Part shown: positions 30,878-33,096 of the stretch, one piece after another
Layout: every line of letters begins with the position of its first letter
Position numbering within the stretch: the first letter of the stretch is position 1
Assembly: GCA_028693165.1 (NCBI GenBank)
Contig: JAQUVX010000006.1
Location: 62,001-126,000, forward strand
Direction of reading: 5' to 3'
From: Lachnospiraceae bacterium
Lineage (GTDB): Bacteria; Bacillota; Clostridia; Lachnospirales; Lachnospiraceae
DNA: 64,000 bases
Program-made: the position numbers and the translations under genes
Notes under the pieces: generated by a model
What the model saw: only the letters and a program-made list of their open reading frames with translations
Told to the model about the DNA's origin: nothing
Database searches by the model: none

Positions 30878-31886
30878 GTTCCCGCACCTCCTCGTATGGA
30901 ATTTCTACTGATTTGAGATAAGTTAGCGCCCGATTGGCATCCGTCTCATCCTCCGGCAGTTGAACGATCATCTGCCCGACTGCCTTGCCCCCGATATCCT
31001 TGGTGGAGGCATATAAAATATTGACCGGAACCTTGCAGGCCAGAATCATATTGGCGATAACCGGTTCCATGGACTCTCTTCCGTCAAAGATAATCCGGTA
31101 TTTCCGCGCCACGTCGAATTTCACGTTGGTCACCGCATCGCCCAGGATGAGCTGCCGCCCAATCCTGGATTTCGGTTCCGAGAAAATGTCGGACACCTTG
31201 CCCACCTCTGCGATGTGGCTCTGATCGATGATCGCCACCCGGTCGCAGATCGCCTCGATGACTGCCATCTCATGCGTGATCACGATCACGGTAATCCCAA
31301 GGTCGCGGTTGATCTGCTTTAAGAGCTGCAGGATCGATTTGGTGGTATTCGGGTCCAGCGCACTGGTGGCCTCGTCACAGAGCAGCACCTTCGGATTGGT
31401 TGCAATGGCTCTGGCAATGGCGACTCTCTGCTTCTGTCCGCCGGACAGCTGTGCCGGATATGCCTTGGCCCGATCCTCCAGGCCCACCAGCTTTAACAGC
31501 TCCATCGCCCGCTCCCGCGCCTGCTTCTTCGGGGTTCCCGCAATCTCCATCGGGAAACAGATATTTTTTACGACATTTCGCTGCGCCAGCAGATTGAACT
31601 GCTGAAAGATCATTCCCATGGACTGTCTGGCTTTGCGCTGACCGGATTCGCTCATCGCCGCCAGATTCTCTCCCTCAAAAACCACTTCCCCGGAGGTGGG
31701 TACCTCCAGCATGTTGATACATCGTACCAGGGTGCTCTTGCCCGCACCGGAGAGTCCGATGATTCCGAAGATCTCGCCTCTCTGGATATCCAGATTGATA
31801 TCATCCAGCGCTACCACCGGTCCATTGGCCGTCTTAAATTCCTTTCCCATGTTCCGGAGCTGGATAATGGTTTCTTCTGCTGCCAT
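30867..31886 (-). CDS. metN: Methionine ABC transporter ATPase
   Basis: A 339-residue ATPase. Walker A GLSGAGKST, signature LSGGQKQRVAIARA, Walker B VLLCDEATSALD and switch His TVIVITHEM are all intact. The C-terminal NIL/ACT-like domain (about residue 265 on) binds methionine and trans-inhibits the transporter. ATG at 31886 follows AAGGAAGGA. An in-frame ATG at 31964 is not used in my view, because it lies across the leader terminator. Expression probably depends on attenuation in the 300-nt leader. Confidence 0.95.
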   Translation of the reverse strand: MAAEETIIQLRNMGKEFKTANGPVVALDDINLDIQRGEIFGIIGLSGAGKSTLVRCINMLEVPTSGEVVFEGENLAAMSESGQRKARQSMGMIFQQFNLLAQRNVVKNICFPMEIAGTPKKQARERAMELLKLVGLEDRAKAYPAQLSGGQKQRVAIARAIATNPKVLLCDEATSALDPNTTKSILQLLKQINRDLGITVIVITHEMAVIEAICDRVAIIDQSHIAEVGKVSDIFSEPKSRIGRQLILGDAVTNVKFDVARKYRIIFDGRESMEPVIANMILACKVPVNILYASTKDIGGKAVGQMIVQLPEDETDANRALTYLKSVEIPYEEVREHDI

Positions 31887-31929
31887 ATCGTGTTCCTTCC
31901 TTTCTTCTCGCTCATCCTTCCACCAAATG

Positions 31930-31961
31930 AAAAAAATCGCAAGTCTGCATAGACCTGCGAT
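31930..31961 (-). terminator. Leader terminator (attenuator) of metNIQ
   Basis: On the minus strand ATCGCAGGTCT - ATGC - AGACTTGCGAT makes an 11-bp stem (one G-U) followed by six more T. It lies 44 nt before the metN start, inside the transcript, and competes with the antiterminator pairing described for 31942-32023. Confidence 0.85.
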
Positions 31962-32023
31962 CATGGTTCCGGTGTCTTCTGTCCCGGTATCTTATCCGAT
32001 TCGACTTATCATCTATGCAAACT
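31942..32023 (-). promoter_or_regulatory. Antiterminator pairing of the metNIQ leader
   Basis: The minus-strand segment AGTTTGCATAGA (32023-32012), whose first two bases belong to the leader stop codon TAG, is complementary to TCTATGCAGACT (31953-31942). The helix is 12 bp with one G-U. The second segment is the 3' end of the terminator's 5' arm, its loop and the start of its 3' arm, so both structures cannot form together. Confidence 0.75.
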
Positions 32024-32120
32024 ATATGTGATTTTTTACGCATACGAACATACGGCACATGTCCATCATCATGCCGCACATCATATCCATATTCATCTGC
32101 ATCGTCGTCTGCTGAGTCAT
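32022..32120 (-). CDS. Methionine-rich leader peptide of metNIQ
   Basis: A 32-codon ORF with a good ribosome site (GAGG, 7 nt before ATG 32120). Codons 1, 7, 9, 11, 13, 14, 17-19, 21 and 24 are Met: 11 of 32, including a run of three. Codons 15, 22 and 27 are Cys. The N-terminal part reads MTQQTTMQMNMDMMCG; the end is VKNHI then TAG. Composition, position before metN and the competing hairpins right after the stop fit a regulatory leader whose translation speed reports charged tRNA-Met, perhaps with Cys as second input. A ribosome stalled on the Met codons would leave the antiterminator free; one reaching the stop would cover it and let the terminator form. Confidence 0.8.
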   Translation of the reverse strand: MTQQTTMQMNMDMMCGMMMDMCRMFVCVKNHI

Positions 32121-32193
32121 ATCGGTTCCTCGATTTCTGTTCTGTCACTTTACTTCCTGCTGCTGTCTTGGTGTAAAAACTCTTATGAGGCGT

Positions 32194-32222
32194 ATTTTAC
32201 GTCAGGCGCGGGCATTTGTCAA
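32194..32222 (-). promoter_or_regulatory. Promoter of the metNIQ leader
   Basis: On the minus strand TTGACA (32217-32222), 17 bp, TAAAAT (32194-32199). Transcription would start near 32187, giving a leader of about 300 nt before metN. Confidence 0.85.
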
Positions 32223-32343: not shown

Positions 32344-33096
32344 TTATTCGTACTCTACAACATCCAGCCAGTTCTCCAGCAGCTCTTTCTCAGCCGGAAT
32401 GCCTTTTGAGAGGCGGGAAGCTGCGGTGATCGGAAGCCATCTCTGAACGTACTGTTTTGCGGTATCACTCATCTCGCAGAACAGATCCATGTACAGATCT
32501 GCCGTCTTCTGATCCTTCAGTGCGAACAGAAGGTAGGTGGTTGCTGCATCTGCGGAAGCGTTGCCCTGGGTCGCATGAGACCAGTCCAGGATATGATACT
32601 GTCCGTCTTCTCCAACGATGATGTTACTTGGGTTGAAGTCGCCGTGAAGCACCTTGTTATGCTTCGGCATGCTGGACAGGCGGGTACGCAGCTCGTAGCG
32701 GGTGGTGGCATTGATTGCCTTGGATGCCGCGATCTTGCTGTCCCATTTATCCTTCAGCTTGTTTAACAGCGGCGCTGTTTTGCTGTGAACCTCCAGCTGC
32801 AGGGTTACGAACTCACGCATATACTGCTCCAGCTTCTTCGGGTTCTCTTCCATCAGCTGCTCTAAGGTCTTGCCTGCCTCGAATTCTGAAGTAATGCACC
32901 AGTTTCCGTCCTCGGTTACGTTGACGCCCAGCACCTTCGGGATCGGCAGACCGGTCTCCTCGACTCTGGCCTGGTTCAGTGCCTCATTCAGCACGTCCGT
33001 CTTTGGGAAGTTTGTATCAAATACTTTCACAGCGGTATTGCCCACCTGATAGATCACTTTATGGGTCCGAGTTGCTAAAATCTTATCGTTTTTCAT
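32344..33096 (-). CDS. Aminoglycoside-phosphotransferase-fold kinase
   Basis: A 250-residue APH/choline-kinase-like protein. The catalytic loop is VLHGDFNPSNIIV and the metal motif YHILDWSHATQGN; the N-lobe carries a lysine in TAVKVF. Such stand-alone chromosomal kinases usually act on small metabolites rather than antibiotics; the substrate is not known. It follows adhE by 26 bp with no terminator between, so it is probably co-transcribed with it. Confidence 0.8.
   Translation of the reverse strand: MKNDKILATRTHKVIYQVGNTAVKVFDTNFPKTDVLNEALNQARVEETGLPIPKVLGVNVTEDGNWCITSEFEAGKTLEQLMEENPKKLEQYMREFVTLQLEVHSKTAPLLNKLKDKWDSKIAASKAINATTRYELRTRLSSMPKHNKVLHGDFNPSNIIVGEDGQYHILDWSHATQGNASADAATTYLLFALKDQKTADLYMDLFCEMSDTAKQYVQRWLPITAASRLSKGIPAEKELLENWLDVVEYE

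Follow-up and report, generated by a model that had tools for sequence, protein, structure and literature searches.

A methionine- and cysteine-rich leader as a probable ribosome-mediated attenuator of metNIQ in Lachnospiraceae

The metNIQ operon of a Lachnospiraceae bacterium is preceded by a short open reading frame (ORF) rich in methionine and cysteine codons and by an intrinsic terminator. Judged from comparative sequence data and RNA folding models, this leader is very probably a ribosome-mediated transcription attenuator of the trp type, which would raise methionine import when charged Met-tRNA, and probably also charged Cys-tRNA, runs short. Its sequence and predicted fold show two of the features by which such attenuators are recognized: a leader ORF with a ribosome-binding site and an abundance of codons for the regulated amino acid, and an intrinsic terminator before the first gene. 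The locus lies on a stretch of 64,000 nucleotides that was analyzed as a whole (hereafter the window), with the following features.

32344-33096, on the other flank of the leader region from metNIQ: phosphotransferase-family gene (PF01636).
32222-32217, minus strand: promoter -35 element TTGACA, then a 17-base spacer and the -10 element TAAAAT at 32199-32194, read from the sequence.
32131-32128, minus strand: Shine-Dalgarno site GAGG, 7 bases 5' of the leader ATG.
32125-32107, minus strand: region 1, the protector, running from the spacer 5' of the ATG as far as codon 5; predicted partner 32022-31996.
32120-32022, minus strand: leader ORF MTQQTTMQMNMDMMCGMMMDMCRMFVCVKNHI, 32 codons plus stop, with 11 Met and 3 Cys codons.
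32077-32052, minus strand: hairpin within the ORF, GCGGCAT (32077-32071) with GTGCCGT (32058-32052).
32022-32011, minus strand: region 2, the 5' strand of the antiterminator, GTTTGCATAGAT, whose first base is the third base of the stop codon.
31962-31935, minus strand: 12-bp stem of the intrinsic terminator, GATCGCAGGTCT/AGACTTGCGATT, with a U tract at 31936-31930.
31954-31943, minus strand: region 3, the 3' strand of the antiterminator, GTCTATGCAGAC, overlapping the 5' arm, the loop and the start of the 3' arm of the terminator.
31886-30867, minus strand: metN, methionine ABC transporter ATPase with a C-terminal NIL domain; ATG at 31886.
30877-30212, minus strand: metI, permease.
30117-29224, minus strand: metQ, substrate-binding lipoprotein.

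By NCBIfam, the three operon ORFs are best named MetN, MetI and MetQ. Pfam domains were found above cut-off in each (PF00005 and PF09383 in MetN, PF00528 in MetI, PF03180 in MetQ), and the NCBIfam models scored below theirs: TIGR02314, the best for MetN, reached 349.6 bits against a cut-off of 499.7, NF008049 for MetI reached 207.5 bits against 212, and the MetQ/NlpA models also fell short. A sequence-only reading of this DNA had proposed a consensus promoter, a GAGG ribosome site, a 32-codon ORF with its 11 Met and 3 Cys codons, and two competing RNA structures. The promoter, ribosome site and ORF are present as described. The antiterminator does have 12 bp and does begin in the stop codon, but its strands had been placed one base off and are correctly 32022-32011 with 31954-31943; likewise, the terminator with its U tract overlaps the 3' strand of the antiterminator as claimed, but its stem has 12 bp rather than 11. 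Two elements had been overlooked, the pairing of the ORF start with the antiterminator strand and a conserved hairpin inside the ORF.

The leader ORF has the highest methionine richness of the 657 ORFs of 20 to 60 amino acids on both strands of the window, with non-initiator Met at 10 of its 32 codons (0.31, compared with 0.15 in the runner-up). The leader DNA was matched in 16 of 24 genomes of the same genus (E ≤ 2.2e-14), and all 16 of these leaders contain a Met-rich ORF with metN directly downstream. For most of these 16 leaders the alignment includes a promoter-like stretch, which a few rows do not resolve, and a Shine-Dalgarno-like run, scored with a lenient motif list, precedes the ORF in all 43 leaders compared. 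Genes for MetN were found at E 1e-90 in 18 of the 24 genomes, 17 of them close orthologs (76-100% identity) and one a partial match (58%), and the leader stands directly upstream of 16 of the 17 close orthologs. In the one remaining genus member (G007; L176, in the 200 bases upstream of metN), the promoter and a terminator-like hairpin remain and the Met-rich ORF is absent, which appears to be a natural loss of the leader ORF within the genus.

Beyond the genus, a back-translated pattern of the peptide core (M.MCRMF.C) was scanned over 84,980 species genomes without targeting metN. It recovered 24 stretches, and 21 of these have metN on the same strand 96-298 bases downstream. The remaining three are L052, which corresponds to L008, where metN was found; L048, which lies on a cut contig; and L044, which we take as a chance match. 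A peptide profile run over 397 genomes of the family gave 28 matches, 16 of which precede metN; the other 12, at E ≥ 0.016, do not. Run over 391 genomes of the class, the profile (A4) returned only the genome of the window itself, a single family member and G739, whose match was rejected, as it is out of frame within another ORF. Because this profile yielded so little across the class, leaders of other families were sought in the upstream regions of metN.

The conservation of the peptide itself could be read in other ways. Twelve of its 32 columns are invariant in the genus, and its Met-x-Met and Met-Cys runs are similar to metal-binding motifs, so that the ORF might encode a functional small peptide, for example a copper(I) binder, with the terminator incidental. 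The conserved core residues coincide, however, with an RNA hairpin that covaries. Across 29 distinct leaders, the ORF hairpin is paired in 99.0% of cells. Compensating changes occur, and some of them alter the peptide, as where changes of Gly16 to Ser or Asp accompany changes in the Cys22 and Arg23 codons that preserve pairing. Neither its covariation score nor its number of doubly changed cells was reached in 500 shuffles, and the weaker measures, pair types and doubly changed pairs, were reached by 12 and 74 of 500, respectively. These scores are inflated by kinship among the leaders, and the ORF hairpin is somewhat favored because the alignment was drawn from the 38 of 43 leaders (29 distinct ones) matching a peptide pattern that constrains the bases allowed within the hairpin. 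There is no support for the hairpin's lower stem, whose score was matched by 212 of 500 shuffles. Other families, moreover, keep the richness in Met and Cys and not the peptide sequence, and T-boxes stand before metN elsewhere, all of which makes a functional peptide highly improbable.

A related alternative is that the nascent peptide arrests the ribosome, perhaps with methionine or S-adenosylmethionine (SAM) bound, much as TnaC does with tryptophan, instead of the ribosome being starved at particular codons. The motif MCRMF.C is strongly conserved in the core group, although members found with the pattern had been selected for that motif, and Phe25 and Cys27 are left unexplained by the supported stem. 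Much of the conservation of MCRMF.C is nevertheless accounted for by RNA pairing, and the divergent leaders have just Met and Cys richness in common; we consider arrest improbable and favor attenuation by codon starvation. In all 38 motif-bearing leaders (the motif is absent from 5 of 43), the strands of the ORF hairpin are 4, 7 or 10 bases apart, so that changes in length keep the reading frame. That the hairpin also serves to pause RNA polymerase is a guess. A pause site 11 bases 3' of the hairpin, suggested by a consensus, was considered and is not claimed.

The leader from 32190 to 31915 folds with a z score of -4.16 and the terminator alone at -18.2 kcal/mol (z -5.3), and in neither case was any of 200 shuffles as good. 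The sequence-only reading had named covarying pairs in both the antiterminator and the terminator among relatives as support, and these are seen in the terminator, which is paired in 94.9% of cells (0 of 500 shuffles; pair types, 3 of 500). The antiterminator is retained, being paired in 85.1% of cells compared with 20-48% in slid registers, but its covariation does not rise above shuffles, 83 of 500 of which reached its paired percentage and 107 its covariation score. This shuffle test is low in power because region 2 is nearly invariant and region 3 varies by wobble pairs. The case for the antiterminator is built on its retention, on per-sequence scores and on the folding model described below. 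Scored sequence by sequence in 42 of the 43 leaders (L006 left out), antiterminator pairing has a mean z of -1.6 and reaches p ≤ 0.05 in 16, and protector pairing has a mean z of -1.9 and reaches p ≤ 0.05 in 21, counts that are not independent because the leaders are related. The window's own leader is weak against shuffles in both, with p 0.067 for the antiterminator and z -0.34, p 0.32 for the protector. The fold predicted for it pairs the start of the ORF (32125-32107) with the antiterminator strand and beyond (32022-31996); in many relatives, the part of protector is taken instead by a Met-Gln-Met stretch at codons 7-9. A reduced set of 27 of the 32 leaders whose region 2 is of the core type omitted L015, L017, L061, L087 and L089 as near others.

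Trp attenuators combine the alternative pairings 1:2, 2:3 and 3:4 with an intrinsic terminator. By analogy, an untranslated metNIQ leader would pair region 1 with region 2, leaving the terminator to form and metNIQ off. Under a shortage of Met-tRNA, a ribosome translating the leader would stall on the Met or Cys codons, open the ORF hairpin and hold region 1 away, whereupon region 2 would capture region 3 and RNA polymerase would read through. With Met-tRNA plentiful, the ribosome would reach the stop codon and either cover region 2 or release and let the 1:2 pairing re-form, and the terminator would follow in both cases. The start of translation poses a conflict that speaks against methionine sensing by such a leader, in that initiation on the leader itself needs charged initiator Met-tRNA.

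We modeled this switch by folding the RNA transcribed as far as the 3' edge of region 3, either free or with a ribosome footprint assumed codon by codon, in which case only downstream RNA was folded. The model is an equilibrium one in which region 2 was picked by motif, and it covers the 32 of 43 leaders whose region 2 is of the core type; those with other types were left out (L036, L037, L038, L043, L047, L069, L090, L126, L130, L134 and L150). The mean modeled probability of the antiterminator is 0.24 without a ribosome, 0.77 with the ribosome on Met codons and 0.27 with it on the stop codon, and for the window's leader the corresponding values are 0.00, 0.60-0.63 and 0.03. The interpretation in the sequence-only reading, in which stalling at Met codons would be the trigger, is largely supported by comparison, with the addition that Cys codons are enriched as well. 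Its proposal that a ribosome at the stop codon masks the antiterminator fits the modeled mean but fails in 6 of the 32 leaders (L063, L087, L068, L089, L093 and L040), where the antiterminator holds at 0.78-0.99; in these, protector pairing may do the work. Without any ribosome, the modeled antiterminator stands at 0.5 or above in 9 of the 32 (L005, L009, L010, L017, L061, L088, L093, L094 and L095), and L007 shows low values on every Met codon (0-0.26).

How widely such leaders occur was judged from upstream regions of 600 bases, taken from 80 of 83 further metN genes in the family (G117, G051 and G221 left out) and from 60 of 70 metN matches in the class. Of the other ten class matches, four had been covered already and six stayed out; among the 60 class regions, one (G285) belongs to the window's own family. 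By a rule that called for five or more internal Met and a Met share of 15% or more in an ORF within 450 bases, 18 of 80 family regions qualified (1 on the antisense strand; mean of 0.30 in shuffled sequence), as did 8 of 60 class regions (antisense 0, shuffled 0.05). Together with the genus, this largely agrees with the conservation of Met-rich ORFs upstream of metN that the sequence-only reading had named as support. A rule combining Met and Cys selected 21 of 80 family regions (antisense 0, shuffled 1.50) and 10 of 60 class regions (antisense 0, shuffled 0.30). A rule for Cys alone gave little excess, with 13 of 80 in the family (antisense 3, shuffled mean 3.15) and 5 of 60 in the class (antisense 4, shuffled 1.70), so that Cys enrichment is visible only inside Met-rich ORFs. 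Neither of the first two rules picked out an ORF in 59 of the 80 family and 50 of the 60 class regions.

Where a Met- or Met/Cys-rich ORF was found, a predicted terminator lies within 80 bases of its stop in 28 of 31 regions; the three others (L100, with the terminator 129 bases off; L221, 254 bases off; and L205, without one) were kept in these counts, and L100 and L205 in the Cys test below. The eight class ORFs found by the Met rule, L205 among them, come from six families, three being from one genus. The divergent leaders in other families share Met and Cys richness and differ in sequence. In 12 Met-selected ORFs that do not resemble the core group, Cys accounts for 36 of the 355 non-Met codons against an expected 19.1 (sd 3.4), a count reached in none of 2,000 permutations of bases within codon positions; the selection here was on Met and not on Cys, the ORF starts are unproven, and the 12 include three closely related ORFs. 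This enrichment suggests that the leader may sense both sulfur amino acids. Two variants were seen among the leaders. L192, L212 and L223, from one genus of family f10, form a second type with a Met/Cys run followed by CSHIAF. L038, L043, L047 and L069 form a subgroup with a Cys-rich C-terminal tail (e.g., IECSCENGFC) and a different terminator, GCCCATGG, an arm of which has its best partner inside the ORF end.

Methionine genes in Firmicutes are known mainly for control by SAM riboswitches, T-boxes and protein regulators, and the T-box binds tRNA directly, with no need for translation. The leader could be a riboswitch or T-box in which a Met-rich ORF occurs by chance, and T-boxes do occur upstream of some metN genes, in 2 of 80 family regions and 5 of 40 scanned class regions by Rfam (in the class, L202, L210, L211, L216 and L229). 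No Rfam family, including the SAM riboswitch (RF00162) and the T-box (RF00230), reached its gathering score anywhere in the window, however, nor was there a match in the 15 scanned family loci that bear Met/Cys ORFs, and the steps of three in the spacing of the ORF hairpin in all 38 leaders with the motif also speak against it. The chance-ORF explanation is thus scarcely credible. No SAM riboswitch was found by Rfam in 120 metN upstream regions, comprising all 80 from the family and 40 of the 60 from the class. The SAM-binding fold that the sequence-only reading had named as evidence against attenuation was not found in the leader, and the Met codons are conserved. The sole SAM riboswitch match in the window's genome (L056; G000:C2:124013-124152) precedes metK, and with the leader at metNIQ, the supplies of SAM and methionine seem to be sensed by different devices.

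Where T-boxes do stand before metN, they resemble the leader in function, sensing tRNA charging and ending transcription before the same gene. Both family T-boxes (L092 and L105) have AUG at the specifier position as we read the alignment. In a tree of MetN, one T-box genome (G120) belongs to a group of 21 rows that also holds leader-bearing genomes, at a position that the tree does not resolve, and the other (G075) falls outside that group. These sequence relationships suggest an evolutionary exchange of leader and T-box sensors.

The leader resembles the trp-type attenuators represented in Rfam by the Trp, His, Leu and Thr leaders in its ORF rich in the regulated amino acid, its predicted 1:2, 2:3 and 3:4 pairings and its intrinsic terminator, and differs in having a transporter downstream, in being rich in both Met and Cys and in carrying a covarying hairpin in its coding core. 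The closest precedent is from another phylum. A study of Streptomyces lividans (PMC8079986) predicts a leader peptide, metL, upstream of the same operon; this peptide, MSTTSDRTPATEATTTPGARCMCRRMCAF, is 29 amino acids long and also holds Met and Cys (3 Met including the start, and 3 Cys), but its start is leaderless and it has no Met cluster. The authors of that study report no typical Rho-independent terminator and call the mode of termination unclear. Since a leader peptide for metNIQ had already been predicted in that species, the clostridial leader is best seen as a variant of trp-type attenuation. Gram-positive bacteria, too, have known leader-peptide attenuation for other amino acids and genes, with a His leader for hisS/hisZ in bacilli (PMC2965389) and, in Staphylococcus aureus, a leucine-rich peptide at the ilv attenuator (PMC5794164). 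The novelty claimed in the sequence-only reading, which knew of no such example for a methionine importer in Clostridia, is smaller in this light. A 2005 study of actinobacteria found no conserved RNA structure in front of methionine operons, a 2013 survey of 43 RNA motifs names Trp, His, Thr and Leu as its amino-acid leaders, and among the best matches listed from the openly licensed literature, no title or opening of an abstract describes a Met-rich leader in Clostridia.

A broader reading, which we put forward tentatively and consider somewhat less than an even bet, is that Met/Cys leaders before metNIQ are widespread and repeatedly evolved attenuators in Clostridia that read the charging of both sulfur amino acids, have been exchanged with Met T-boxes and offset the conflict at initiation by stacked Met codons. 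A ribosome-read leader for methionine import, if true, would add a further sensor for this amino acid and a further amino acid to those controlled by attenuation. It also raises the question of how a ribosome senses a lack of methionine when the start codon itself requires Met. The enrichment in Cys makes a dual sensor of sulfur amino acids directly testable, and the T-boxes at other metN genes would provide a natural case of one tRNA sensor replacing another.
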